Position numbers and translations under genes: made by a program
In this document: piece after piece, positions 4,824-29,703 of the stretch
Layout: the number at the start of each line of letters is the position of its first letter
Position numbering within the stretch: the first letter of the stretch is position 1
Notes under the pieces: generated by a model
What the model saw: the letters and a program-made list of their open reading frames with translations, nothing else
Databases searched by the model: none
Told to the model about the DNA's origin: nothing
Source of the DNA: Rosellinia necatrix
Lineage: Eukaryota > Ascomycota > Sordariomycetes > Xylariales > Xylariaceae
Length of the DNA stretch: 64,000 nucleotides
Direction of reading: 5' to 3'
Assembly: GCA_021209875.1 (NCBI GenBank)
Contig: JAGYVD010000002.1
Location: forward strand, 5,890,001 to 5,954,000

Positions 4824-6629
4824 CTACTTTCGGTAATATATCTAACCAGTGTATTAGTTGCGTGGCTGTTACCGCTGGAGGTGTTATACACAAGATGCTT
4901 ACCTTCTTGAATTGGAAATGAAGTTGAAGAATGCCCTGCGGACGAGGTTAGCCGGCTAATAATATATGAATGTGTGGCCCAGCCAAACCTGGGCCCGTAA
5001 GAGGCAAGGGGGCCGGGCTCTGAAACTATGTGGTGCGTGGTCGCACAGCATCCATTGGTGGCTGGGGGCTGGCGTGACAGTTGCTCGAATAATATTCAGA
5101 GCAAGACATGCTGCTTCATCTCGAAGCACGCGACAGGCGATAGGGTGCCATTGGTACCGAGTGGAACGACCTGTAGAAACCAGGGAATAATGAAAGCGAA
5201 ATAAACACAATACCTTATCAAAGCTACTCCTAAATCCTCTGTCCTTTTTCGCACTATAATCCCATTCACGGTCGACGATGCGAAAGGCAATGTCCTCATA
5301 TGGCGGACCGGAAATGAAGCGGATGAGACAAGTGTCTTCCTCACCAGCCGGGGCCAGAGATTCACCCTTTCTCCTCCCGTGTTCCCGGACGATCTTGAAC
5401 GTGGGGGCCTTGGTTTTATCGATGAGATCTGGGTAAAATATGTTGAACTTGTACCCATGAACCACTTTGGGTGGCGGGTTATCGTGGTCGTAGTGAGTTT
5501 GATTATACTTATTCCATTCGTAGCCCATCTGCACGCGATTAAAATAACGCGGCTTTCGTGGTCGGTATTTGTCGGCCCATTGGGGCTTGATCATACTCGA
5601 GACTGATTCCTCCGCCGCGAAAATTTCCTCGTCCTCGTCGACACCCCGCGCAACCTCACGCTCGTACAAAGCCTTGGTGGCCTGGGAGAAATCCTCGTTT
5701 GTGGTAGACGCGAACCTCTCCGTACCTGGAGGTATACTGTCGAGGCTGTCTGGAGGAGGAATCGTCGGTTTCGACCGAGAAATGACAGCGGGAGCTGCAG
5801 GTCGATCCTTCACGGAGCCCTGCGCAGTAGAATTACCGACGGTGACCCCGACGGCTCTCTTCGAGCTTGTTTCCGGCAGCAGCTTGTGTCGGTTGTCCAA
5901 GATGGTAACATAAATCCTTTTGAGGCTCGCCTTGGCCTTGTACACCTGCAGGCCTTTAAGAAGCTGTTCCCAGTAATCCGTATCTACGACTTCGTCGGAA
6001 CGTAGCTTGGCCTGGATTTGGCCTTCCAGCTTCTGCAGCTGCTCGAGACTCTTTGGCCCCAGAATCTTGTCTACGTCGGACGTGACTGAGCTCACAGCGC
6101 GCGCCTCGGGCCCTAAAGGCTTCAGCTTTAACCTACGGTCCGTGAGCAGCATCCGCAACGCGGTCCAGTATTCCTTGTTCCTTGCATTCGTCTCGAGGGT
6201 ATGGTACGACGTCATCTCACCATCCAGCTCCCTCGCGGCTGTTTCGTCGAGCCCTTCTATGACAGAGGTAGGTTCAGGGACTTCGATATGCACATCCGTG
6301 TCGTTATCGTCAAATACATCTCGTTCGGTGTCCAGGTATCGTAGGTTGAAGGCCAAGAGGTCGATGGGTTTGGCTCGACCCTCGCGCACACGGATGTCGG
6401 CCTTCTTCTTCGACTGTTTGAGGACGAACTTGTCTTCGTCGGCTACGAAACGCTGCGACTGCTCATCTTGGCTCAGGTAGGTCTGCCTGGCCGCGCTCGG
6501 GGGTTTCGCTTGGGCCGGCCGTTGACGCTTCGTGATCCTGGTATTGGCATCCCGTCTAGGAGATGTAATGTCACGGCGAGGGGGGGACTTACGGCCAGAG
6601 GCAATCATAGCCTGTCGCCCGGGATCCAT
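4824..6629 (-). CDS. Cactin, spliceosome-associated protein
   Basis: Cactin is a conserved nuclear protein of spliceosomal complexes needed for accurate splicing. Exon 1 (6629-5214) encodes a basic N-terminus, a mid-region with KPIDLLAFNLRY and a C-terminal cactin domain with FKIVREHG, LIRFISGPPYEDIAFRIVDREW and GFRSSFDK. The frame then reads on into non-coding sequence, but a GT at 5213-5212 fits a donor. A 33-nt exon (4935-4903) encoding GILQLHFQFKK follows, and an 18-nt exon (4841-4824) encodes IYYRK and stop; together they restore the family's invariant C-terminus. Introns are 278 and 61 nt. The product is 488 residues. A GTG 18 bases upstream keeps the frame open, but the ATG at 6629 (MDPGRQ) is the likely start. 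Confidence 0.93.
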
Positions 6630-8257
6630 CGTGACAACGGGGGACACTGTGATGGCGCAACAGAAATAGCGAAGGAAATAGCAAAGCCTATAGCGATGAT
6701 GACGGCGAGATTATCGATGAGAGGCCTGTTGCCGAAGACCTCGGGACTGGTGTCAAGTTGGCTATCCACTTTTCATAAGTACCTAGGTAGTTATCGCTAT
6801 TAAAGACATAAGCAAGTACTGAGTGACAGCGTCGGTGCATCACTGCGCTGCTGCGTGTGTGGCTGGACACCTAGGCAGCCCTCAGTGATAAAATTCACCA
6901 CTGCTGCGCCACATCCACTCAATTATAGCGGTACCAGAGGTAACTACCTACCTACCCCCCTACCTACCCCCTACCTACCTCCTACCTACCTACTTACTGA
7001 CCTACCTTATCTGCTTCTACACTCCTCCATCCCATGAAACATTTGGCATCCTGACATCCAATGCCGCGAAATGCTTATGCTGTGCTTTGGTATCTCTATC
7101 ATCTCATTCATATCCGTCTTCTGCCTCTATCATATACAGGCAACCAGCTGTGAAGCTCTATACTGTCTACATCCCCGCTGTACCGGTAGTTGCAGGCACA
7201 GGTCTGCGCGGGTGCCACAGGCGTTACGGATGGTATTACCACGGGCGCACCGTCTCGTGATGCATCCATCTCATTCCCAATCCAGGTGTTAATAAGCGAC
7301 TCCCACCCAGTACCTACTGTTGTTCGCCCTCGACCATGCCGCGTCAGGGCCGCAGTTCAACTCCGCAGCCGTCTTAAATGGTCGAGTTCGTGGCTAGATC
7401 AGCCAGATAGCCTGGCTACTCCGTTATCGGGAATAGAACGGGAGGCTGTCCTTAGGGTACAGCATTTCTTTCAAGTGTATTTCACCGAGATCTATCTAGT
7501 CGAGCATGAAACGAAGACGCCAAGTCGGTCCGAAAGAATGATGTCATTGTACGAGGGCAGACGACGGTACGCGTTCGAGACAAAGACGTTGGATAGCAAA
7601 TCTCGCGCATACCAGCCTGTCGACTACTGCAACGAAGGCATTGCCGACGAGACATGTCAGTCGTTTGCTGGCCGAGTCTAGTATGCACATTAGGTAAGCA
7701 AATATGACTTATCTAAGCTGCAGCAGATTGAGGACTGAAGGCGGAGAGCCCCCTTCGCCGGCTCCTTTATTCAATAGCGCCTCACTTTCAAGTTGGTGAG
7801 TATAGGATCAGGAGGGCCATCTCTACAAAGCTACCTAGGCACATCGCTAGGCTAACACTTGTAATTATGAGCCAGCCAATGTCGAGCACGGATGGCAAGG
7901 CAGCAGCAAGGCCAGCTTCCCGCTCATTGCTTCCCGTTATCTAGTTTGCCAGCTTAGGGCAGTTGGAACACCACAACATGGCCAATTACGAGCTCTATCA
8001 CAGATGACACCCTCTATGTGCGGCCAAAATGGACATATATAAGATAAGGATGACTGGTAGAGGTAGCGTAGCCGGAGTTATGATCGGGGATGGATGTTCC
8101 CGGTCCCACCAAACTACTGAACATACGGTCCTGGGCCTAGGATGTGCATCAACCGTCATTGCTATGCGCTGCCCATTGCCATGCTGAACCGTGTCTGCTC
8201 CGGTATCCCAACCAATTCTCAACCACGGACCCCTAGTTTCAATATTCCAATCGCGGA
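6630..8257. other. Intergenic region, no gene supported
   Basis: It holds the cactin promoter side and the 3' side of the GH62 gene. TACCTACC repeats occur at 6780-7010. A 163-codon open frame at 7190-7681 on the plus strand shows no known domain and I leave it out. Confidence 0.55.
6935..7010. repeat. CTACC repeat tract
   Basis: CTACCTACC and CTACCCCC units in imperfect tandem, the same repeat family as at 2400-3270. Confidence 0.85.
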
Positions 8258-10521: not shown

Positions 10522-12298
10522 TTACTCGGGCCTCATCTCGGTATCTATCATCTTCGCCCTAGCAGGGTCCCGTGGGAGAACCCGGGCCTTGAAAGCCTTG
10601 GGGTGCACGGCCAGGCCCTCGGTCAACGCCTCGCCGTCGGGCAGGATGTCGTTGCCCCGCGCGTCCTGCTCGGGGCGGAACTCGAACGCCCACAGCATGC
10701 GGGCGATGGCGATGAACAGGCTGCGCTCCGCGACGTGGACGCCGAGGCAGATGCGCCGGCCGCTGCCGAAGACGAAGTGGTCGCGCGCGGCCGGGTCCGG
10801 GTTCAGCGCGGCCTCGGCGGCGGACTGGGCGTCGCCGAGGAACCGGTCCGGGCGGAAGGCGCGCGGGTCCGTGTACCGGGCCGGGTCCATGTGGATGGCG
10901 TACACGTTGTTGACGACGCCGGCGCCGGCCGGGATGCGGTAGCCCAGGTAGACGTCCTCGCGGGTGGTCGCGTGCGGGACGCCGCCGAGCACGGCCGTCG
11001 GCATCCAGCGCAGCGCCTCCTTGACGCACGCGCGGACGTAGGGGAGCGCGGCTTCGTCGTCGAGCGTCGGCGCGCGCGAGGCGCCGACCACGCCGTCGAG
11101 CTCCCGCTGCGCCGCCGCCTGCACCTCCGGGAAGAGCAGCAGCGCGCACACGAAGCCGTACAGCGTCGCCGCCGTCGTGTCCGAGCCCGCCTCCAGGAAG
11201 CTGCCGGCGACGTACGCCGCCTGCTCGTCCGTGAAGCCCTCGGCCGCCTGCTGCCTGGCCATGTCGGCGCACAGGCACGCCTTGCACGTGCCCGCCTCGA
11301 TGCTGCGCTTCGCCTCCAGCCAGAGGCCGAGGTACATGTCCATCTCCTTCCGGTGCAGCGCCTTCGCGCGCGCCTTCGTCGGGACCATGAAATCCGGGAG
11401 GCGGCGCAGCACGGGGAAGAAGTCGGCGAACGCCGCTGCTCCCGTCTGCGCCAGTAGCCCGAAGTTGTAGAACCCCTCGAACACTTGGAGGAGCCGCGGG
11501 TCGTCGTGTTTCGTGGTCCGCCAGCTGGGGCGTGTTAGATACGTTGGAGATAGGGGCTCGGGCTCTTTGCTACGCACCCGTATATCATGTGGGTTGAGAG
11601 TGAGTTGGAGTAGCGGCGGAAACTCTCCATCAGCATCTCTGGCTGGTGCAGCATCTCGTACAGCAACTGCTTGCTTTCCAATAATTGGTATGGGACATAC
11701 GTCTTGGAAGCCCGGGCATTGAGTAGTTGATGGCCCAGTTTACGGAACTGAAGCAACATTAGACATAACTCCCTACGTTTCTAACTTCACTCTTACCATC
11801 CTCCAATTGTCTCCATATCTCTAACAATCATTAGAATAACTCGCTCACCACACTCAAGCAAAGCACTTGATACTCACAAGCATCAGGAACCGATACCCGC
11901 CACTACACAACGTCTGGCCAATGTACATGTCCAGGCGGTCACTGTAAATGGCGCTCCTCTTGTCGAAGAGCTCCTTAATCGCAACATCGCTCGAGAGAAC
12001 AATCAACACCTGCGTGCCAAGCACGAGACTAAACACAGGGCCATATTCCTCAGCCCATTTCTGAAACTGCTTGTGCGGTTGTGATGTAGGTAACTAGAAT
12101 CTCATGTTAGCGCCCTGTCCTCTCTCATCTTGCGCCAACAGTCACAGCATCACCCACTTGATGAATGTTGCCAATAATCGGCAAAGTCGGGGGCCCTGGT
12201 GGCAGACCCTTTGGCCTCATGCCGAGGCCACTCCAGTAGACATACGCGAATCCGGACAGGACAACCCCCACCGTAACTAATAAAATGTTGATCGCCAT
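10522..12298 (-). CDS. Cytochrome P450 monooxygenase of the putative cluster
   Basis: Five exons join to 517 residues: 12298-12158, 12093-11878, 11820-11797, 11747-11578 and 11524-10522. Exon 3 is only 24 nt (RYGDNWRM, the conserved C-helix region). The protein has an N-terminal membrane anchor, a Pro-rich hinge (GLPPGPP), an I-helix AGSDTTA, the ExxR motif KEALRW and the heme loop FGSGRRICLG with Cys443 as heme ligand. These place it among E-class group I microsomal P450s, resembling fungal secondary-metabolism oxidases of the OrdA type. The substrate is unknown. It is the outermost gene of the minus-strand cluster set. The first four exons have ordinary GC while exon 5 is extremely GC-rich, an abrupt change at intron 4. 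Confidence 0.93.
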
Positions 12299-13761
12299 TG
12301 AATCTAGCGGTTTGGAGAGTGTCTCGGATGATACAGACGGACGCCTTAGTCTCTAATCACTCCCGCGCTGAAAACACAGTACAGTTATTCCTCGCGTAAT
12401 GTTGGCGACTCCTCAAAGGATGAGACAAGAAACGACGGTCGTCATTGCAATCGGAGCTATGTACCGTATCCCCCCGGAACCGGATCCTGGCTCACAAATT
12501 TCGTGACACACCTCTAGCGAATTGCCTAGGGCACAATTATCCATAACGGGAATCTTACCCGATGTATTGATCCTCGTATCATTTTCATTCTCGTAACACT
12601 CTTCTTCCAAGTCGCTCCCGCGGCGCCTCCGCCGGGTATCATAATTACTCGCTGCCGGGGGGGGCTAGATCAGAGAGTCAAGCAGTCTTACATAACGCTG
12701 CCCACGTCCCACTCCGTTCGTTAGTAAGCCTAAAAAAAAAAAAAAACCCCTGGAGTAGGCTATTGACACGTGATAACCTATACACGTCTTATGTCGGTTT
12801 TTGTCATGGGTAGAGCGACTGAATCTTACATGCATCGCTAGCCGGAAGACTACGCCGTGTGGCGGCTGCAAGACGGCAAGGGTAACCGAATGCTTGGGCT
12901 AGTCCCCGCCATGCGAATCATGATGATCTGCGTTATGTATCATGTATGTGTATGTATGTAAGACACAGCAGGCAGGTGCTCAAGGGTCCAAATGGATTTA
13001 GCCCCTCGAAAGTGACCGACTGACGTGAGCATGAATGAAGAGCCTCGCAATAGCCGTGCATATAATCCATGCCAGTTGCCATACGATTATCCCCGGGACT
13101 GAGGCATATACCCCGGACTCCGACGAGTGAGCGTCAGCTGAGATTAATACCAAGGTTCTTACATCCTATGAGTCTGCCTCGCTGCAGGAAAACAAGTAGG
13201 TAGCCAATGACAAAGAGGAGAGATCCTGCTGGTCTAGTAGAAAGTCTATCTACGGTAGCGGCGCCGTGGCGGGCATAAAGTGGTAACAGGGAGCCGCAGC
13301 TCAGCTCGCCGGGATGCAACCATCCTGGCGGTTATCAATATAGTCAGCATCATACATCGACATGTGTAGGCTGACTTGTCAGATTTTGTGATCCTGTGTA
13401 GCATGGTATCAGATAGTAGATTTCTAGTTATGGTAAATGTAAGGAGGCATACAGAGCGTCCCATGTGGTTCTTAAGAATGCGCATCATGGGAGCCGTGAT
13501 GATCTTGGTTAACACATCGTACTCGGTCTCCCACTCTCTCCTCACATAGTAGGCTTGGCCGCACCTAGTCTGTCCTGCTGATCAAGCGGTTTCGGTGACT
13601 ACACTGTCATAATCACTAATCACGGGTCACACGAATCATAAGCCCAAATTGATGGAATAAAATTGAATCATGTTTGGAGGATTTGGATAACGTGTCTATT
13701 TTCCAACACACCACAGCCGCGACGAATGTATCCCCCATTCGCGCTCCATTCGCGCTCCATC
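12299..13761. other. Intergenic region, no gene supported
   Basis: This is the promoter side of the P450 and the 3' side of the aldo-keto reductase. A poly-A run of 14 lies near 12733. Open frames here are short and show no recognisable similarity. Confidence 0.6.
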
Positions 13762-15111
13762 TCAGTTGACTTCCTTTCCCTCTCTCTTCTTCCTCGGCGG
13801 GATTGGCTATACCAGAAATCATGATCAGCACTGAATGTAAACTCTGCTACGTTTGAACAATAAACTTACCTTAGCATCTTGGACATAGTCGTAATGCCCG
13901 GTGTTCTGAATAAGTAGATTGTTGGCTGGGTTAGCACAACCATTAAACCACATCGGGAACCCGATATCAAAGGGGGCTGCGCTCTCGATTATTTCAATGT
14001 CCTGAGGGGTAAGTTCCAGGTTTAGTGCTTCCAAGTTTGTCTTCAAGTACTCTAGCTTGCGGCATCCGATAACTGGGAATACGTATGGCGCCTTGTGCAT
14101 CACGTATGCCAGCGCTACGCTAGTCATGGCCACGCCCTTGATGCGACCAATCTCTTGGAGCACCTTGCCTACTTTAGCGTGGTTGGAGGTATCCATAACC
14201 GGGATATTGCGCCCGGTTTGCTGCTGCTTCTGCGCCACGCGCTCCGCGTCCGTCTTGAAATAGCCCCCGCCGAGCGAGCCCCAAGGCGCGAGCGCCATTC
14301 CTTCGGCCTTACACATCGGGATGATATCCCGTTCGAAATCGCGTGCGGCACAGGACCAGTGGCCCTGGTAGATTGAGAATCCACGCATCCCCTTTTGTCG
14401 CGCATCTGCAAGGATCGGTCAGTTGAGCCCGAATGTGATGACTCTGATGAGGCGTCTGTAGCAAGTGTTCAGGACTTACACTCGTTGGCTTTAGTAACAA
14501 CCCAGGCGGGTGTATCGCTGATTCCGAGATATAGGACTTTGCCGCTCTGAACCAATTGGTTCAGAGACTGCATGACTTCCTCGACCGAGGTCGTAAAATC
14601 GAACCAGTGGACGTAGAGGATGTCGATGTAGTCCGTCCGTAGCTTTTTCAAACTAGCTTTGACGGAGGTGTGCAGACTTTTCGTCGAGTTGCCAGTGAAG
14701 CTGCCTTGAATCACCCCCTTCTCGTAGAAACGAAACCCATTGCTGTATTTAGTGGCAATGACCATCTCGTCACGTACACCGCGCGACTCCAGCCATTCTC
14801 CAATCCAGATCTCGGAGAGTTCGTTCTGGTAGTTGTTCGCTGTATCGATGAAATTACCACCATGCTCTTTGAAATAGTCGAGGATCTTGAAAGCCTCTTC
14901 TTTAGAGCAGTCTCCCAGTAGCTCTGGCCTGTGAAGTCGATTGGTTAGCCCTCTATTCCGGCCTGAGTTCGGTTACCTCCTTGACTTACCATGCATCTCC
15001 AAAACCCATTGTACCAAGACATAGTGGACTGACGAGCATGCCAGCTGTCGGGGACAGAACTCGGTGGACACCGAGGGCCTCCGGCTCCGGGGGTTGGGGA
15101 AAGAAGGGCAT
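13762..15111 (-). CDS. Aldo-keto reductase (aryl-alcohol dehydrogenase/NorB-like)
   Basis: Four exons (15111-14990, 14928-14480, 14405-13870, 13806-13762) join to 383 residues. The protein is an NADPH-dependent aldo-keto reductase of the fungal AAD/norsolorinic-acid-reductase type, which interconverts aldehydes or ketones and alcohols. The catalytic tetrad is visible: Asp69 and Tyr74 in FIDTANNY, Lys101 in IATKY and His148 in YVHWFDF. The last exon of 45 nt supplies PIPPRKKREGKEVN; without it the frame would run on into intron sequence. It sits between the P450 and the GST in the same orientation. An enzyme of this class could process an aldehyde released by the reductase domain of the neighbouring NRPS-like protein; that link is inference. 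Confidence 0.93.
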
Positions 15112-15594
15112 CTCGTCAGTGGTGTTCTACGTAATGTGGATTATTGGGATGGTGTCAGTACTTTGTTCCGTTGCGAAATGTGGTATTAAGTCTGGTGCTT
15201 TGGGCTTCATATCTAAGAAATTCGCGAAGACAATATGGCTGGCGTCAGCTGACACTATTTTCGTCTGGAACCCGGAGTAGGCTGTTACAAGACACTCCAC
15301 CTGTATACACCGTGCCCTTATATTTTGGCATCAATAAATCCCGGTCTAGGTCCTTACTAAAGCCAAGGTATTACTTAAGCAGCGTAATTGGTACTGACAA
15401 AGGTGATGAGGATTGCCCAAACTAAATGGGAGATAACCGAGTGGAGGTCGTAAGCACATAATATCCTGCTAGACATCTGCGGTATACCCATGCCCCCTAG
15501 ACTAGTCTTCCTGCTCTAAGGCTTGCCGAGGTGACGGGGTAGACCTAGCGTGGATTTTCCATGAAGCACCCCAGGTACAAGCCTCTCAATTACA
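15112..15594. other. Short intergenic region
   Basis: About 480 bases between the 5' end of the aldo-keto reductase and the 3' end of the GST gene. Nothing recognisable. Confidence 0.6.
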
Positions 15595-16257
15595 TTATGC
15601 AGGGACCTTGGCACCGAACAGTGCAAGGGCTACAGAGCTAGCTTTTCGGCCGTCCATCCTCTCAAAGTACGCCGTCACATTTTTTCTGCCCGGCAAAAGC
15701 ACCCAAGCAGCAGGGCCCATAACCATCATTTTCAGGAGACCGTAAAAGTGTATATCGGCGGCAGTGAAACGGTCACCGCACAGGTGCGACTTCCCCTCCA
15801 GCTCATCATCGAGCAGGTTCAAGAATTTGTTGATAGTGACCTTGTCGTTCACTTGAGCGGCCGGCGTAGGCAGCCGATTGCCCTTGTAGAAGTCGATGGT
15901 GCTGGGGTCGTTTCGCCACCAAGAGATGACAGGCTGGGCGATCTCTAGGTCCATGCGCCGTAGCCACATCCGCGTCTCGGCCCTCTCCACGGCGGTCTCG
16001 CCGAAGAGGCTCTTGCCGCCTTTCGCCACTTCGTCAAGATACTCGCAGATGGCTGTGATCTCTGTGAGCACGAAATTCTCGGAAATGCGCAGTGCGGGAA
16101 GTTCGCCTCGGGGATTCACGTCACGCCGGTAGGCCAGTCGACGATTCTCTAGGGTCATGATGTCCACCTGCTCTACATCGAGCTCGATACCGCCGCGCTC
16201 AAGGACGAAGAGTCTCACCACGTAGGGGTTAGGGGCTGCGGCGTCGTAGAACTTCAT
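15595..16257 (-). CDS. Glutathione S-transferase
   Basis: A single-exon frame of 220 residues from the ATG at 16257 (MKFYDAAAPNP). It has an N-terminal thioredoxin-like GST domain, with GELPAL where the family has its cis-Pro and TEITAICEYLDE as the glutathione gamma-Glu site. An all-helical C-terminal domain includes the N-capping-type GDRFTAADIHFYG. Cytosolic GSTs conjugate glutathione to electrophiles; in fungal metabolite clusters they either build C-S bonds or protect the producer. It lies in line with the AKR and NRPS-like genes. The exact class and substrate cannot be told from the sequence. Confidence 0.93.
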   Translation of the reverse strand: MKFYDAAAPNPYVVRLFVLERGGIELDVEQVDIMTLENRRLAYRRDVNPRGELPALRISENFVLTEITAICEYLDEVAKGGKSLFGETAVERAETRMWLRRMDLEIAQPVISWWRNDPSTIDFYKGNRLPTPAAQVNDKVTINKFLNLLDDELEGKSHLCGDRFTAADIHFYGLLKMMVMGPAAWVLLPGRKNVTAYFERMDGRKASSVALALFGAKVPA

Positions 16258-17046
16258 TGTGTCCTTCTGGGAATTATCAGGTAGCAAGAGAGTGGGTTAT
16301 AATGTGGATTTTATTCTTCTTGAAGAGAGATGCAAATGTGCTTTCTGCCTTTGCTTCTTCCTCCGATAAGAATAAAGCTAGGATATAAATACAGTTCCAA
16401 AGCAGCTCCAACCTAGCATCACGAATCCAAGTTACGCGTGATATTCGAGCGTATTTCGCAGCATCGCCATAGCTTCGAACACTAACACTGCTAGATACGT
16501 GGAGCTAGCGGCCTGATTTTCCACCGTTGGCGTCGATGTCGACACCAAAAGGTGAAAAGTCCAATAAGCAGGTTGCATGAACTTCCGCCGCGGAGGTAGT
16601 GCTTCACCATCCATCTAAATGAAGTTCATCCGATAACTTTGCTAAACCACACTAGCCAAGACTGGAGTTTGGGGTTATCCCCGTACCTAGGCCCGCTAAG
16701 AATGTCACTTCCGGCACCCGCTGTAACGGATATCGGTTCTTATCCCCGGGAATATTTGGTAGGGCACACAGGCTATTGCCAAGCCCACGCACTATTGCTC
16801 TTCTGGTGATACATGTTTAGTTCACAGCCAGCGAAGCAAATGGTGCTGTGAGGCTCTGTTATAAATTTAGACACTTTCCCTAGATCTCACGTTACTTGAT
16901 GCCCGTAGGACCGAGACGGGAATGGGATGAAACGCTTGTATATTATAAAAGGAAATAAACGTGTGCATGAGACTGTATCTTAAATGTACAAGACGCAAAT
17001 CGTCAGCGGTGACCAAAGGAAACATTTCGTTATGAGGGGCGGGGAA
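16258..17046. other. Intergenic region between GST and NRPS-like gene
   Basis: This is GST promoter and NRPS-like 3' flank. No gene is seen; a 60-codon frame at 16432-16614 is too short and featureless. Confidence 0.6.
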
Positions 17047-20000
17047 CTATGAGACGCAAGTATTCCACGACTGTATCCAATGCTCCATCCAAACACCCTG
17101 TACTGGTTCTATGTTGGCCAAGGTCTTAGATACTGCGAGGGTACGCGTGACGTCGAGGACTGGCATCCGTGCCTCTGGGTTTGAAACCATGCCTTTGTAA
17201 AAGGGGAGGATTTTAAGCGCCGAAAACCTCCGAATATCGTAATCACTAGATGCTTGCTTCTGTAGTTGGTTTACCCATTCGGGGAACGGCACTAATCTTA
17301 CATCTCTGCCAAGCGTCCGGCATACGGCGGGCAGTAAGGCTGACCATGTGGTCTTGTAAGGGTTCGCAAGATGGTAAACCTGGCAGTCATTTCCGGACTT
17401 GCTGTTGAGTTCATGGCGCAGCACGTCCGTGAAGACCTCTGCCGCTAGGTCGATAGGTACCCAGTCAATATCATCGCCAGTTCCAAGCGACTTCGGGAGC
17501 ACGCCAAGGGCTTTACTCGTGCTGACCAGCATAGGCAGCCACTCCGAAGTACTCCATGCGCCAGGCGAATGAACCGGGCCAGCCAGCTGACCGACCCGCA
17601 GGATAGCCACGGCCAAGCCAGCAGATTCTGCCACCTTTTGTAATATCTGTTCCGCCGCGTTTTTGGACTGGGCATATCCGCTGTCGCCTATGGCGGACTC
17701 ATCCGTATGAATCAACTCCGGTACATCCCCAAGACTAGCATCCCAATTCATGACACTAGCAATAGAAGAGACGAAGATAAATCTCGGCTGGTGTTGGCAA
17801 TTAACAGCGAGGTCGGCCAGATAGCGCACGCCGGCGATGTGCATCTCGAACGAATTGAGGTGCTGATTGAAGTCAACACTCCAAGCATTGTGGATGATGG
17901 CATGAGCATTCTTCTGAATGTCGGAGAGCTGGCCTGGCGCGAGGCCCAAGTCACTGCGCGACAGATCAATCTGAAAGAAGTCGACAGCTGTGTTCTCCGG
18001 GCTGAATGGTAATCCTCGCTTCCGGCTCGCGATCTCTTGTCGTTGCTGACCATCCTCCCCGCGGTGGAGACAGATTATCCTTGCGATGGAAGGCTCACGC
18101 ATGAGGCACTCGACCAGGTAGCATCCCAGCGATCCCGTGGCCCCAGTCAGGACCACGGTCTTGGCGCCGGTCGGAACAGACCGAGTAAGATCCGCCGTAT
18201 ATCGTTCAAGCAGCCCTGCCACACTAGCGCTCACCCGCAGAGCCTTATGCGGTCTATCGAGATTGGCGGGCTGCGTCTTTGAGTCATTTGCACTAGGGCG
18301 CGATTGGACGAGGTTCGTGATGCCATGGACGGAAGGATTCGCATAGAGTTGCTTGAGGCCGGCTTCTCGATCCTGTGGCCATGAGATTGACATTTCTCGG
18401 AGCTTATCCGCCATCTCCGTAGCCTGGAGGGAGTCCATCCCTAGCTCAAACAAGTCTTTCTTGTCAGAAGGAGGACGAATGTTGCACACAGCGGACACAA
18501 GATCCCGTATCGTCTGGGCAGGAATCGCCCCCTCTGTTGCTGAGACTTTCTCTGTCTCCCCATTGACAAGGGAAGTGGCTATTTTCGGCTTCCTGGGCAG
18601 TTTTACCCGAGCAGAAACAGGGTCAGCCTCCCCAGTTGCTTCTATGCGGATCTCCACAGATGGTTTCGCCAATTGTTGAGGTATGGTGTCAGCCTTGGAG
18701 CCAGCGTACATCGCGTTAAGCTCGGCTTCAAAGTTTCTTATGGTAGGCTTGCGTTGCAGGGTTCCTTTTGCTGACCGAGAGAAAGGCTTGTGTGATGACG
18801 TGACGAGGATCAGATTCCTAACGATCCTTGCGTGCGAGGACGTTGTCTTATTCGCCATTTCGACAAATGGCCATAATGCTTCGACAATATCGGCATCTGG
18901 TACATCATCTGCAGTCTCCGGGTTTTTTTCGACTAACAGGGCAGCCTGGAACCTTCCTTCGCCAACTATCACCACGTCTTTGACATGATGACACGATCTC
19001 ATTACCTCTTCCGCGGGGATGGGATTAAACTTCTCGCCATTTGACAGGACAGCGAGATCGTCCATACGGCCTCTATGTGTCCACAGGTTGTCTTTCACGG
19101 GATGCCTTGAAATCAAGTCTGGTGGGACGAAAAGTAAGCAATTAAAACAAGCCGAAATCCCAAATTGAATTTTAAATTCTTTCAAGAAAGAGAAAACGCT
19201 GTTAGAGACTTCTTACCTCCAGGTGAATACTCCGTTAAATCTGGGAGGATCCTAAAACAACTTTGGATAGACTCATACGTGGGATTCTTTGTGAATGTCA
19301 TCATGTAGAGGTCGTCGTGGTGATGCTTGGCGGTAAACCCAGATGCTGGGTGAAACTCAAAGTAGTTCCAGTCCTCTGGGTCCATCACGAATCTCGGTGG
19401 CGCGCTCGCTTCTGTAAATCCAATGAAGTTGTGGAGTGTGGTGATGCGAGAAATCTTATCACCTGCTGATTTAGAAAGAGCTCCGCCACCATAAGCAGCG
19501 AATTTCAGATCATGCAACATTTCAAGACTGGACGGTGTCTTTGACAGGTCTTCTAGGATCGATGGCGGATAAATGCCGCCTTCAATCCTCCCAGACGATA
19601 TACCTGCTAAAGCGACATCACTTGTCAATGGTCTTGTTGCAGGCCCATATACAACTGTGGATCCAAAATATACTGGCATGAACAAGGCAAACCAGATTCC
19701 CGCAGACTAAGATTTTTGTTAGCATCAGGCTAAAAAGAAGAGAATGGCATAGGGGATTGCTTACATGAAAACATGGCATGCCTAGAAAATAGCGCCTATG
19801 TGCGAATAATCGCCACCATAGCCGATTAGAGGGGTCATCGAGGGACTGATGAACGTCTTCTGTCGTAGTGCTCTCAATAGAGAAATTTATGGGTTTCGGT
19901 GGCCCTAGGTAAATCAGTCGTCGGATCGAAGATTCGTTCATTTGGTTGACTCACCTGTTGATCCAGACGTATGCAAGATCATGAATTTATTCTTACGAAT

Positions 20001-20574
20001 CTGAGAAAACGATTTACTAAACGGGTATACAGGCACTTCGGTATCCTCTAAGATTTCAGAGAGCTCCGGGATGACTGCAAAGAAGAGGTCAAGATCATCT
20101 TCACTTTGAATCTCTTCAAAGTGCCTGATATGACTTCGTGCACAGAACATAGTCCTGCACTCTGTGCGCCGTAGAAGCTCAATTTGGTAGTCTCTACTAT
20201 TTCGAGGCGATGGAAGCATCATCTACAGATATTGTGAGGTTCTCATACTTTTCTGCTTCGCACTTTCAACTTACCTGATACCCACACTTCATTGTAGCCA
20301 CGAGGAAGATAGCGTATCGCAAATCGTTTGGTCCCATGTATGAAAAGACCTCTTGCGTGTTTGCCAGGCCGAGATTATCCGAGAGCCACCAGCTAGCCCG
20401 GTTGATGGCGTTGGCCACTGTCTGGTAAGAAACATCCAAATATCCATCGTTGAGATTTTCTGAGAGCGGGATTGAAGCAAATACTCTCAAAGGCTCAAGG
20501 GCGGCGACATCATCAATGATGTTGGGAATTAGCCGTTGGCCGTATTTTGGCGTTCCTCCGTTGATGTAAGGCAT
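17047..20574 (-). CDS. NRPS-like A-T-R enzyme (carboxylic acid reductase type)
   Basis: Five exons (20574-20275, 20222-19955, 19904-19765, 19706-19217, 19118-17047) give 1089 residues. The order is adenylation, thiolation, thioester reductase. The A domain has the core motif HTSGSTGPPKP, GGGALSKS, FTEAS and the late motif RGRMDDLAVLSNGEK. The T domain has FELGMDSLQ with phosphopantetheine Ser629. The R domain has the Rossmann motif LTGATGSLG (from about residue 723) and the YxxxK pair Tyr881/Lys885 of short-chain-dehydrogenase type reductases. Such enzymes activate a carboxylic acid, load it and release it reductively as an aldehyde or alcohol. There is no condensation domain. It is the natural backbone partner for the isocyanide synthase 2.2 kb away, which is divergently oriented. 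Confidence 0.95.
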
Positions 20575-22825
20575 GTTTCGTGAACTTCTAGATGAAATTT
20601 GAAGTCTGATCGTGTAGACAGAACATTCAATCCAAGACTAAAATGAAAATCTAAGATGAAAGCAACAGCCCAAGCCTCATCGGCTTGTCAAATACGCCCG
20701 TCTGTAGTTTTGCACGTTTAAAAAGAACAACTAAGATCTCGAAGTATAATACGCAGACGAATAATCTTGGCGTGTCCTTTCATCATGCTTGTCGTGCCTT
20801 TGCTCACTGTACTAATAAGCCTTAATCCCCATCTCATATCTATTGTCAGACACTGGGCGCGTAGTAGTGCCTTACACAAGCTCATCATCCCGTAGGGTCT
20901 ACATGTAGTCTAGCATTAACCCCAGCAAGTAATCCCAGTACATATCAATAATTTCCACTTATAGACCATTGGTCAGCGGTGTTAACAATCCCTGTCTCGA
21001 ACTAGCGGGTTCCACAAAGATGCGTTTGTCAGCGGCGTGGTTGACACGATGTGAGGCGTTGTCGCGTAGTTACCCAACCCTGTATACTAAAATCCTTCAT
21101 CCCTTGATTATTCCAAGGAGCCGGTTTAAACCCCCGAAACGTTGATGGTTTACTACCGAAGCAAGGTTATCATTCTTTTTTTATTCCTTTTTCTCGTACG
21201 CTTGTTACCTATCGACCTCACCAGGGCGAGAACTACACTATAATATTACACACTGGCACATTTGGAATTACGGGTTTACTGGCACGCTGAGAGCAACCTA
21301 CCTCTTTTCTGACGCGAATCTATTTTATAATATGCAGTCATATCGCGAATGGCCAAACCTATTTCCGATTCAGCTAAGCTCATTTTGGACCTTTCAGATA
21401 TGTATGTTAACTAGTTATTCCTCCTCCAGGATCGTGAATGCTGACTTAAAAGGTACAAGACTAGGGCCAGGGAATGTTCCAGGTGTTCTTAACCAGGATC
21501 ATTTTATGAAGCTTAAGCCTCATTAGGCAGAATATGGGGCTCGTATGTAAACTAGAATTTCTAGTTCCGGAGAAGGACTGTAAGAAGGCGTGGCGCGTTG
21601 CCAAGAACGCCTAAATACCAAGGTAGGCGATGGTGGGTGATCGGCAATACAACGCGCCCCCGGGTCCCCCACTATCTCGATATTAACGACAATCGGTAGT
21701 TGAGTATATATATGCATTATTAGGCTATTAATGTTCCTTGATCACCCATTGTCCGCATTGATTCGCAGTACTTTTACATAGCACCATCGTATGTGCTACA
21801 TAAATAGAGAGGCAAACAGTATTGAAAGGCTTTTAAATGCTGGGCGTCATGCTCTTCTAACCGTCCTTGTAATTATGCAGTATGTACCCAGGGCACTAGG
21901 TTAGGTAAGTAGGCTAAGCGGCTGAGAAATGACTCGAACTACACATAGGGGGAGGAGCATCAATAAAAAAAGGGTTGCATAGCACCAGTATCCTCGCACG
22001 GCGTTTCCGAAGCACGTGTTCGCAACAAATCCTGCTTAGAACTACGAAGAGCGAAATCTGGCGCTGAGTACAGCACAAGTAGAAACTCCTGCAGACACAC
22101 CCATAGCTGGATAAATCTGGGTTGATCTCCCTGCGTTCTACCGGCCACAGACTAGGCAGGTAGGCTCGGCGACTAACTGCCCTGATCACCGCCAACGCGT
22201 CAACATGAAAGACACCCAGGAAATAAAACTAGCATAAAGTCAATACACTACATAGTATTCAACCTTTGCACTGTGATTTCCTTGGCAACTGTTTGGACGG
22301 TCAAACGCTGATGCTAGCATGACCTCCTGCTCCTATCCCAAAATCGCAATCACGCCGAACGGGTCTTTCTGGATTCCGGCTAATAATAGAAGTGCCAGAA
22401 TAAGCGACCAGTGTACGGGGTCACACAGCGTGAGGCCTTTGCTGCCTATCCCAGCGATCCGTCGCGCTTCGCTTGGTCCGAAGCCACCGCGATCCGAGGT
22501 TTTCGGACCTGGTATCAAGGGCGGTAATCTTGCGTAGTAAGTGGTCTAGTGTGGGGAAACGTACCCTGTGCCGCATCTCACGAATTACAGCATAATAAAA
22601 TATCGTACTCGTCTTGCTGTAACAGGCGTCAAGTATTATGTAAGTAAAATTGACGGCTAACAAGTCTCAAATTCGAATCCATTCGAGATATTAAATGGAG
22701 AAGCAACCACTACACCTGTTTTGAGGAATCAAGTTCATCCCAGCCGAGACTTTTCCTTTTCTGCTGTAGGAATCGTTTCGTTCTCCTAGATACTCCTGCC
22801 TTCGTACGAGGTCCCAACAATCACC
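20575..22825. other. Divergent promoter region between NRPS-like and isocyanide synthase genes
   Basis: A 2.25-kb, fairly AT-rich interval from which the two central cluster genes are transcribed outwards. No gene is supported. Frames at 21332-21526 and 22319-22537 are short and unlike known proteins. Shared cluster regulation from here is plausible but no binding site is identified. Confidence 0.55.
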
Positions 22826-25178
22826 ATGTCTGTTGCTTCGATTCAAATCCAACCTCCAACCTCCCCCCACCTTTATCATACCATAGGTGGCCAACCCAAT
22901 AGGTTTCCTTCATCTTCTATCAGGAGAGAGGAGCCCTCGTCGCAGCCGGTTAATGGAGTACAACAGCCGGTGAATGGGGCGCCGCAGCCGATTAATGAAG
23001 CGCCGCCGCCAATCAAAGGAGAGCCAAAGTCTAAGGAAGTCGGGAATGTCCGCGACCCTGAACCTACTATTAAGCCACTGGCTCTCATTTCGCCTCCGGT
23101 GAAGTCAATCAGTGAGCGAGCTAGGGCAGCGGCGATCGTGCTTAACCGATATCGTATTGAATATAAGAATGATTGGGACTTTCCCGAGTCGATTATTTAC
23201 GCGCAGGGGCAGATTCAGAAAGCCCTTGAGCGAGAAGCCGCGATCGAATTTGTAATTCCCGCATTTCCCTTTAAATCTTCAAATCGCTCGAAAAAGGTTT
23301 TGGGTCCGCTACCAGATGAAGCCGAAAGGCTTTCGCTATTACATCTCAATGGACTCTGTTTAGCAATCAAAGATGCCACAAATTCTGATACATTCCTAAC
23401 CATAGTTTCCGATGGCATCACATATAATGGTAATTAGCTACTTCCCCCTAATTTTACTTGCTGATTGCTAACTCAAACCTAGACATACTCGGAGTCTCAG
23501 ATCAGGAGGTGTGGAGGTATGGTCAACAATTAAGGCAGATGGCACAGAAAAACGGTTGTCACCACATTCGGTTTTCACGCATCTGCGACCTTGTTGATGC
23601 CGAAGATGAATCGGAAAAGCTCGATGAAACGCTCTATCTTGAGAGGGTTTCAGAATATCGCAGGCTTCTCGAGGCGAACACGCCTGACGGCTTTGACGTG
23701 TTAGATGCCATCTCAAATGACCCGGACATCTCGAAAACATACAAAGGCTACAAGAAATTTTTGATGAGTGAGCGGGACGATCGCAACAACCGTTCTCGCT
23801 CTCAAACCGAGAGAGAAAATAGCGGGATCGCCAAAGAAATGATAGTGAGAGGCAAGGTTAGTAGAAACCCAGCGCCATGTGAGGATCATCTCAGCTAAAG
23901 TGAAACAACAAGGCTTTCGCCGAGACCGTAAAAGCAAAGTATCCAGACTTCGTTCGTCTCTCAATTCACCCCTCAAATGACACAAATAAGGTATCTATCA
24001 CCATGCTACCGCAAGACAATGAGGTTGTCATGACCCCCTGGCATGGCGCCGTAGTGCGAGGTGCGGATGGAAGTGTCTCCATGTCACACGCCATCTTGGT
24101 ACCTGCAATGACGCACGATATTGTCTACATTGACGGACAGCCAAGCTACTTCCGCGAGAGATCAGATGTTTTTAACTGGCCTGCTATGGATGTCACCTTC
24201 GAGTACCTGTATCCTTGTGGCATCATGATCAAGCCAGTGAACCCGGCTTCCGTTTACCCCCTATCTATGGTCGACATGCAGAAGATTCGCAAACTTGCAA
24301 TGACGTGCTCTCCTATCGTTCTTCGGGGTTTCTCAAACACCAAAGATCGTCGTACGTTTATCGCTAAGGCACACGACCTGGGCCCAGTACTGCCTTGGAA
24401 ATCGGGCGTCATTCAGGAGGTCAAAGATGAGTCTAACAATGATCCTCAAAGCAACAGCGGTAAGCCATGCTTAAGCCCTTTTTTTTTTCTGAACTTGTTG
24501 AGACTGTAGTGGTGTACTTTCCGCCTGAATATTTTGAATTGCATTTCAGACACTTCATGCCCCAAATAACTCATAAGTCATCGATCTTGAGAACTAAATT
24601 CTAGTCTTTTAGTGGTTTCTGCTGAAGCGATGCCTATGCATTACGACGGCATGTTTAAGATCATGATGGTTCGCGACGAAAAGACAGGGAAGGAAAAGAA
24701 GATCTCAGACACCCCTCACTTCCAATATTTCGTCTCTCAATCGGCGGCCCAACCAGGTGACGGCTATACGCTTTTCGCGTCTTCGGACCTTTTCGCGCGT
24801 TACCTACCCCAAGCCTACAACATCAATAAGCTTGAGAAGATCAGGTGGACATGCCGCAGCCACGGGTTCTTCCACCATATCATGGAAGACGTCCCATTAG
24901 TCGTTAGACACCCAACGCGGAACTCGCCATGCATCCGGTGGCACCAGCCTTGGCCCAAATGGCGGACGTCTTACGGCTTCGCTGATATCAGCATTGATAA
25001 CGGGTCGCAGAGCTTGATCCCAATGGTAGACAGCTTGTTGTTTGATCGCCGGGTATGTCTTAGGTTTTCATGGCAGGAAGGCGACGTCTTGGTCTCCGAT
25101 AACTTCGCTATGTTACACACGAGGACCTCATTCAGCACAGAACATCCGAGGGAGCTATGGCGAATTCATACAGCATGA
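22826..25178 (+). CDS. Isocyanide synthase (DIT1/PvcA) fused to Fe(II)/2-oxoglutarate dioxygenase
   Basis: Four exons (22826-23429, 23483-23856, 23913-24459, 24613-25178) join to 696 residues. After a repetitive Pro/Asn-rich leader (QPVNG, APQPI units) comes a DIT1/PvcA domain from about residue 85, with the family signatures VSDGITYNDILGV, YPDFVRLSIHPS and TPWHG. Such domains convert the amine of an amino acid, classically Tyr or Trp, to an isonitrile. The C-terminal half is a TauD-like dioxygenase with the iron triad His518-x-Asp520 (MHYDGM) and His677 (MLHTRTSF), plus Arg692 for 2-oxoglutarate. The same fusion is known in fungal XanB-type enzymes, where the second domain desaturates or decarboxylates the isonitrile. 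All key residues are present, so it looks active. The ATG has a good context (CACCATGTC). Confidence 0.93.
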
Positions 25179-27359
25179 GGCGGGAAAAGCATAGTTTTTA
25201 GTGTACTGTACTGGTCCTGATTTGTCGTTTCTCGTATTTGTTTATAGAGCATTGTAGTTTCCAGGGTCCCTTATTTATTGAGCTTGCGTTAAACATTATG
25301 CGTGGTCCGCTTGATGATCTGTGAGCGATACGCATTATTACCATTCACCTCTCGCTACATAAAAGTATTTCTCTAATGTCAAATTTCTCGTCCCGTTATT
25401 ACTTTTCTTTTTATCCTACCTACTCTTCCTCTCACGCGTGAGGGTTTAGGCCCGCGGTCATCCATTTATCCCTATTCTTATTTTAAATGCATAATATGGG
25501 ACACCACTGAACGCAATAATGTGAAGACCAAAAATATGCAGCAATTGAAAAGACAAATATTAGGTCATCGTGTTCCAAGCTGTATCATTGGTTCTCTCGG
25601 GTGTTGTGGCAGCACTGTTTGGGACAGTCAGATACCCTATCAGAAGCATCGAACAGCATTGCGCTTCGCGCCGCTACTAAATGTGAGTGAATACAAGTTG
25701 TCGAGCTACCTCGATATAATATGAACTTTGATCTCCCTATCAAATCAAAAAGAAACGAAAACCCTGTTATCCATCCACCTATATATGTTTTGTTTAGTGA
25801 AGAGGAATGAAACGGCGAAATGCAGACTAAGGTCGGTATAAAGGGGTAAATCTAGCTGACATCATCAGACATTCGAGGGGCTTTGCCACTTATAAGTTAA
25901 CGCCCCAAATTTAAGATTCAGGTTGTTTCATTTCATAAAATTTAGTTTTCATTATATCCGTTCCCCCGGCGAGAAGTGACTTTCAAGTTCTGGTTCGGAG
26001 TGTGGTATCTTCCCCATCCCCAATCGAGATGAGAGTCACTGCTTGAACACCCGATTATCGCGCAATGCAGTGCCATATAAAGCTATCATCTTTCGATTGG
26101 GTTCTCAATTGAAAGGTCCCAGGGTATGGCTCTCACAACCAAGGCCATTGCCTAGGTGTATTTGAACTGAGTAGTATGCAGATTCGGGTGCCATCGCTGA
26201 CACCAAGAATGAACACGAAGTTGCCCCAAATATTGCTCATAATTCTGATCCGGGGTCCTTGATTACTTTTCCAACCGGTGTAAGCGCCCCCAAGCAGGAC
26301 ACGGGAAACCATGGTACAACAAAATAGGGGCTCCGTATGAGATCTTCACGCAAAACCATGATTGGAGGCTTGCCTTGCCCAATCACTCCTTACATGTCAA
26401 TAAAGCCCACGATTTTGCTCGGGCTCAACCATAAGCTGACGGATGCGACGCTAGCCACTGATTGCCCCGATTTTCTTGAAGATGAAGGGGGTTTTATACT
26501 GAAGCGGAGTATTGTGATTGGTAGGGAAGTGGATACTAAGGGGTCAAACTGGCTACAGTGGCATAAAAAGGGGGGCGTAACATTTCCATGTAAATTCGGA
26601 AGCTTCACTTCTACAGACTGATTTTTTGGCGATGTTTTCACCGAAGAATTATCTGTTAATCAATTTCTATTTCCTAGTATTCAATCGATCGTTTCATTCC
26701 CCATTTATTCGAGTATGTTGCCTTATAGTTGGAAGCGTAAGGTCGACTTATCTCTAACAGAACCGCTATTGTTATCCTTTACTAATTACAGGTGGTTCAC
26801 TTCAATACGGAGAATGAACCTCTCTTCATTCGAATCATGCAGGTTGCCGATGTTGTACGTCGCGGTTTCCAATAAAAAATGCTCACGTCACGCACCCGTA
26901 GATGGATAGTCCATATTAGTCTTCGGGCAACATGTGTCCTGGGTTATTCCCTTCCCTCCTCCCCCCAGCTAAATATTCATATGGTTCTGGTTGGTTATGT
27001 TGATCTCGCATAGCTCCTGGCGTTCTGGCAGTGTTCGGAGGTCCACTTCGTATGGTACTCTCTCAATTATTGTCCTCACGCAGCTGATTATCAACCATCA
27101 AAAGGGGACGAATCTTTATCACTATCTCCTTAGTAGCCTACAATTTACCCTTTATCCCCACATCATAAATAGGTGAATATTCGGCCCCGATGGTAAGCAT
27201 GTAGAAAATGAAACGATCCATGTATACACCCCGAAATGTCCCTTATATCATGCCTATCTCGCTGATTGGCGAATCCCCTTTCGACAACCTTGACCCTGTC
27301 GAAGGCGTAGTTCCATGATTAGATGATTCATTTGAGCCCAACCTGACTGTGCTCCTCCC
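25179..27359. other. Gene-poor AT-rich region
   Basis: Two kilobases after the isocyanide synthase with no convincing gene. A 94-codon frame at 26337-26621 has an unbiased sequence and no known domain; it may be a remnant. This stretch plausibly marks the edge of the cluster. Confidence 0.55.
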
Positions 27360-29632: not shown

Positions 29633-29703
29633 GCATCAGTGGTTTAGTGGTAAAATCCATCGTTGCCATCGATGGGCCCCGTGTTCGATTCACGGCTGAT
29701 GCA
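29633..29703 (+). tRNA. tRNA-Gly (anticodon GCC)
   Basis: A 71-nt cloverleaf with acceptor stem GCATCAG/CTGATGC, D-loop TTTAGTGGTAAA, anticodon GCC at 29665-29667, T-arm around GTTCGATTC and discriminator A. There is no intron. A run of five T at 29715-29719 fits a Pol III terminator. Confidence 0.96.

Follow-up and report, generated by a model that had tools for sequence, protein, structure and literature searches.

The stretch of DNA analysed here (64,000 nucleotides of the ascomycete Rosellinia necatrix, C2:5890001-5954000 of a 49.1-Mb, 12-contig genome, hereafter the window), whose genes are fungal in type, raises the question of whether five adjacent biosynthetic genes at positions 10522-25178 belong to one pathway and, if they do, on which acid its reductase acts. 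Among them are a carboxylic acid reductase (CAR) of the adenylation-thiolation-reductase (A-T-R) order and an isocyanide synthase (ICS) fused to a TauD dioxygenase, and the first-pass annotation had proposed that the former activates and reduces the carboxylate of the isonitrile amino acid made by the latter. We favour, with moderate confidence, the view that the locus is a single fungal cluster for isocyanide biosynthesis, of a class already known, in which the CAR would take a different acid. The genes were spliced by hand with GT-AG introns, each model yielding a complete open protein, and a Pfam scan of the five spliced proteins gave the domain assignments; the least certain points of the models are the C-terminus of the aldo-keto reductase and, in the ICS gene, the third intron (153 bases) and the second acceptor (AACAAG).

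10522..12298, minus strand: cytochrome P450, 517 amino acids, Pfam p450 2e-68; 5 exons in the splice model, 12298-12158, 12093-11878, 11820-11797, 11747-11578 and 11524-10522
13825..15111, minus strand: aldo-keto reductase (AKR), 383 amino acids, Pfam Aldo_ket_red 1e-75; 3 exons in the splice model, 15111-14990, 14928-14480 and 14405-13825
15595..16257, minus strand: glutathione S-transferase-like protein (GST), 220 amino acids, GST_N_2/GST_C about 1e-8; 1 exon
17047..20574, minus strand: A-T-R carboxylic acid reductase (CAR) resembling a non-ribosomal peptide synthetase (NRPS), 1089 amino acids; 5 exons in the splice model, 20574-20275, 20222-19955, 19904-19765, 19706-19217 and 19118-17047
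20575..22825, no strand: divergent CAR/ICS intergenic region, 2.25 kb, single copy in the genome
22826..25178, plus strand: isocyanide synthase-TauD dioxygenase fusion (ICS-TauD), 696 amino acids; 4 exons in the splice model, 22826-23429, 23483-23856, 23913-24459 and 24613-25178

The coordinates and all five gene calls of the first-pass annotation proved correct in the splice models and the Pfam scan. The five genes, most of them with introns, are intact and, as it had also held, adjacent, and the active-site motifs that were looked for are intact as well. The P450, AKR, GST and A-T-R genes are read from the minus strand and the ICS-TauD gene, divergently, from the plus strand.

The ICS-TauD gene joins a DIT1_PvcA domain (PF05141, 3e-84) and a TauD domain (PF02668, 1e-21) in a single protein. 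The ICS domain keeps the motifs PAFPFKS, RLSIHP and TPWHG and matches PvcA (3e59, E 5e-27), and the TauD domain matches 7tcl (4e-17), which we judged to be PIsnB from its residue numbering, and PvcB (3eat, 2e-14). Both catalytic domains and their motifs are conserved with respect to the bacterial PvcA/PvcB and IsnA/IsnB pairs (3e59, 3eat and 7tcl), from which the fungal protein differs in having the two domains fused. Residues H518, D520, H677 and R692 align with H101, D103, H250 and R265 of PIsnB, the first three of which are iron ligands and the last the anchor of the substrate carboxylate (PMC9467999). In enzymes forming vinyl isonitriles, the residue at PIsnB position 107 is K or R and that at position 188 is N or H, and carboxylate-keeping enzymes of the PvcB type carry L and C at the same positions (PMC9467999). 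In the window protein these positions are occupied by K524 and H619, as read from an alignment of seven TauD domains (an eighth row, of one residue, was dropped); because both are of the decarboxylating PIsnB type and not of the PvcB type, its product is expected to be without a carboxylate, and loss of the carboxylate to give a vinyl isonitrile is the best forecast for this dioxygenase. The second ICS-TauD of the genome likewise has K and H, so that the vinyl-isonitrile type is fitted by two of the two ICS-TauDs in this genome.

The reductase shows, in order, the Pfam domains AMP-binding (1e-24), AMP-binding_C_3 (3e-37), PP-binding (4e-7) and NAD_binding_4 (4e-35), and its closest solved relative is the R domain of the Neurospora crassa CAR (NcCAR; 8aep, E 2e-74), with 37% identity over 393 columns. 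Replacement by alanine of H237, E433, S595, Y844 or K848 abolishes the activity of NcCAR (PMC5826065), and the window protein has five of these five essential residues, namely H236, E428, S629, Y881 and K885, which were assigned by motif (PxxH, LSxGEK, GxDS and GYxxxKxxxE) and, for the R domain, also by the alignment with 8aep. The domain order, the essential residues and the R domain all liken it to NcCAR (PMC5826065, PMC10168641, PMC9605436). To judge from its sequence, the A-T-R enzyme is therefore a fungal carboxylic acid reductase with the residues for reducing an acid to an aldehyde, a part of the first-pass annotation that gains support here. Unlike NcCAR, the window CAR has Leu911 at the position of Val874, which in the NcCAR set is always Val or Ile. 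There are 13 matches to the CAR-type domain AMP-binding_C_3 in the genome, and 11 of the 12 others also come with a reductase-domain match (none was seen for L016). That the window CAR is the plain NcCAR copy of this genome was rejected, since L012 (49%) and L014 (40%) lie closer to NcCAR than its own 37%, and it is for this reason that we class it, by sequence, as a diverged paralogue.

If the dioxygenase decarboxylates, the CAR would have to load an acid other than the carboxylate of the ICS product, and this is what the two selectivity residues of the dioxygenase suggest. K524 and H619 accordingly led us to reject, as the leading route, a CAR acting on the carboxylate of the isocyano acid itself. 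In the chemistry first proposed, gene content and the competence of the CAR stand; the step in which the carboxylate of the ICS product is reduced is weakened by these two residues, under a rule that is itself correlative.

In the pathway that we favour, the ICS domain would convert an aromatic amino acid, probably L-tyrosine as in its family, into the corresponding isocyanide, and the fused iron- and 2-oxoglutarate-dependent domain would desaturate it, releasing CO2 and yielding a vinyl (styryl) isonitrile, as its two diagnostic residues predict. To judge from homology and intact residues, another carboxylic acid would be loaded onto the carrier domain of the CAR and released as an aldehyde, which the AKR may perhaps turn into an alcohol, and the P450 and the GST might modify or protect. 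The P450 has the motifs AGSDTT, EALR and FGSGRRICLG, and the AKR has D69, Y74, K101 and H148, which we take to be the catalytic tetrad; the nearest solved chain of the AKR is an aryl-alcohol-dehydrogenase-like protein (7utf). No second match to the GST was found in the genome, the paralogues of the AKR found in the genome search are on C1 only, and P450 paralogues of the same kind occur at several places in the genome, one of them lying on C1, some 17 kb away from a further CAR. The base make-up of the P450 gene is uneven: its GC content at third codon positions (GC3) is 0.955 in the last exon, against about 0.65 in the initial 551 coding bases.

By analogy, there is a slender chance that the vinyl isonitrile and the CAR aldehyde would couple, the isocyanide carbon attacking in a Passerini- or Strecker-like manner to give an enamide. 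For fumivaline, the proposed route has an isocyanide from CrmA adding to an imine of an ergot precursor that a second cluster supplies (PMC9381783); were the coupling true, the genes for the electrophile and those for the isocyanide would here be neighbours, unlike in that two-cluster system. A literature search for biosynthetic Passerini chemistry gave no paper on point, as judged by titles and the openings of abstracts.

Proximity is the sole link between the two halves of the locus. The CAR and ICS genes are 2.25 kb apart, and random placement of the 13 CAR-type A-domain matches and 2 ICS loci in 49.1 Mb would give about 0.002 such pairs at a distance of up to 2.3 kb, an estimate computed post hoc for genes of secondary metabolism, which are not randomly placed. 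Besides the dependence on proximity, several observations weigh against a single pathway. The ICS gene lies on the strand opposite to the CAR-GST-AKR-P450 set, and the five 500-base upstream regions share no exact promoter word beyond chance in what is a weak test, the best being one 9-mer in three of the five promoters, a level that 7.5% of 200 shuffles also attained. The sequence TGTGCTCA, which we take to be a copper-regulator site, occurs 2 times in the window, with 2.0 expected, and 0 times in the locus. Elsewhere in the genome another CAR (L011) has a P450 about 3 kb away (L011/L032), and the flanks searched gave no ICS relative. If these facts are joined to the predicted lack of a carboxylate for the CAR in the ICS-TauD product, the two halves could be unrelated neighbours, the ICS-TauD working alone or with distant genes and the CAR-GST-AKR-P450 set reducing and modifying an aryl or acyl acid in biosynthesis or detoxification. 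We regard this as a serious but rather unlikely explanation, given the close spacing of two rare gene types and the fact that the window block is no copy of the L011 set, whose P450 is just 30% identical to that of the window and where the 9 kb around the CAR yielded neither an AKR nor a GST relative. A copy of the window block elsewhere in the genome was likewise looked for and not found: the GST gave no second match, and no P450, AKR or GST relative was seen in 15 loci (L006-L020). A scan for relatives gave 0 in viral contigs and 2 distant loci in the collection of genome contigs.

Accessory functions are also missing among the proteins scanned: no regulator, transporter, methyltransferase or hydratase domain was found by Pfam in 25 window proteins, i.e., the five of the locus and those of 20 flanking open reading frames (ORFs), 8 of which had no Pfam match at all, in a scan that covered part of the window's ORFs. 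The first-pass annotation had likewise seen no transporter, regulator or isocyanide hydratase in the window. Of the genome's 7 DJ-1/PfpI matches, the isocyanide hydratase type, 0 fall inside the window, and a transporter may have been overlooked, as a genome-wide search for the MFS family was uninformative (9 of 373 candidates scored). The lack of transporter, regulator and hydratase in the scanned proteins, together with two features just past the ICS gene, an FTA2-like fragment and a repeat of 0.3 kb that is dispersed in the genome, would be in keeping with a decaying or silent locus that has no present product, which we hold to be very improbable since all five frames and the motifs examined are intact. 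Somewhat better, but still improbable, is the route of the first-pass annotation, in which the carboxylate is retained in the ICS product and, once activated by the CAR, is released as an isonitrile aldehyde or alcohol for tailoring by the P450, AKR and GST. The genes are adjacent, the CAR is competent as far as its residues tell, and it could act ahead of the dioxygenase; moreover, the selectivity rule is correlative and not causal, as K113L and N194C in a PIsnB orthologue left the product unchanged (PMC9467999). Three further bacterial TauD domains, with L/Q, V/A and V/A at the two positions, fit neither type fully (0 of 3), which counts against the reading that we favour. Set against the retained carboxylate are K524 and H619, both of the decarboxylating type, and the proposal for XanB, which was modelled with a product analogous to that of IsnA-IsnB (PMC5974471).

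The single cluster with a different acid for the CAR, which we prefer to these alternatives, would be a real and intact member of a known and diverse class, and its membership is plausible. Fungal ICS clusters have been catalogued as 3,800 clusters in 200 families with three backbone types, of which ICS-TauD makes up 36.2%, and clusters with NRPS-domain genes account for 12.8% and are mostly crm (PMC10153163). The word 'reductase' is absent from the main text of that catalogue, and no A-T-R reductase is named in the portions seen; the catalogue may nevertheless already list this type. Literature searches gave no paper with 'isocyanide synthase' and 'carboxylic acid reductase', nor one with 'isocyanide synthase', 'NRPS-like' and 'aldo-keto reductase', results that do not show the combination to be unpublished. 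As in the xan cluster of Aspergillus fumigatus, with XanB and the Dit2-like P450 XanG, the window has an ICS-dioxygenase fusion and a nearby P450 (PMC5974471), and the product forecast for its dioxygenase from two residues is, like the one proposed for XanB, a vinyl isonitrile without the carboxylate. The xan cluster also has the hydratase XanA and the methyltransferase XanE, neither of which was seen in the scanned window proteins (PMC5974471), and unlike xan the window locus has a CAR, an AKR and a GST; with no hydratase match in the window, we take it not to be the xan cluster, and the difference from the xanthocillin set already pointed out in the first-pass annotation holds. With crm the locus shares the association of an isocyanide synthase with an adenylation-thiolation enzyme (PMC9381783, PMC10153163). 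CrmA, however, is one fused ICS-NRPS-like protein with a transferase domain and without a reductase (PMC9381783, PMC10153163), whereas the window ICS is fused to TauD only and the A-T-R reductase is a separate gene alongside. The locus is not the crm cluster either.

On the left the locus is flanked by GH62 and cactin genes and on the right by an FTA2-like fragment, a tRNA-Gly gene and SLX4. A dispersed repeat of about 310 bases lies directly past the ICS gene (26495-26808), with at least 34 other matching pieces at about 29 genomic places, 69-91% identical (40 of 65 candidates scored). The open frame at 28443-28967 matches FTA2 (PF13095) in its C-terminal portion, over profile positions 76-213 of 214, and is possibly a gene fragment or a single exon of a kinetochore-like gene, and the tRNA-Gly (gcc) gene is at 29633-29703, between the ICS gene and SLX4. 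GC3 ranges from 0.54 to 0.85 in the five locus genes and is uninformative on the origin of the locus, because six flanking genes span a similar range (0.51-0.89).

Other isocyanide loci were observed in the course of this work. The second ICS-TauD of the R. necatrix genome (C11:2131152-2133265) is 39% identical to the window protein and has TPWHC instead of TPWHG; around it (C11:2124658-2138470; L006, L007 and L008) are ORFs resembling, by eye, P450, FAD monooxygenase and MFS transporter genes, and this region may be a separate ICS cluster. Plasmid plas1 of Burkholderia stagnalis (L027) has an ICS-TauD-like match at about 5884-7779 that is split into two pieces, seemingly in two frames, and is unannotated in the plasmid table. 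On plasmid plas2 (L029), a single run of genes comprises two for isocyanide synthases together with those for an efflux transporter, a methyltransferase and a prenyltransferase. Hymenobacter plasmids (L028 and L030) have adjacent genes for isonitrile synthase, TauD and an FAD-dependent oxidoreductase, and their TauD, in which the selectivity positions hold V and A, conforms to neither published type.

Isocyanides are reactive, metal-binding compounds, some of which are antimicrobial, and to our knowledge the product has been established for few of the fungal ICS clusters. If they are indeed paired in one cluster, the ICS-TauD and the acid-to-aldehyde reductase would make this locus a tractable test of isocyanide and aldehyde chemistry combined in fungi, and the residue-level forecast of a decarboxylated vinyl isonitrile provides a concrete product to seek and corrects the route that was expected.

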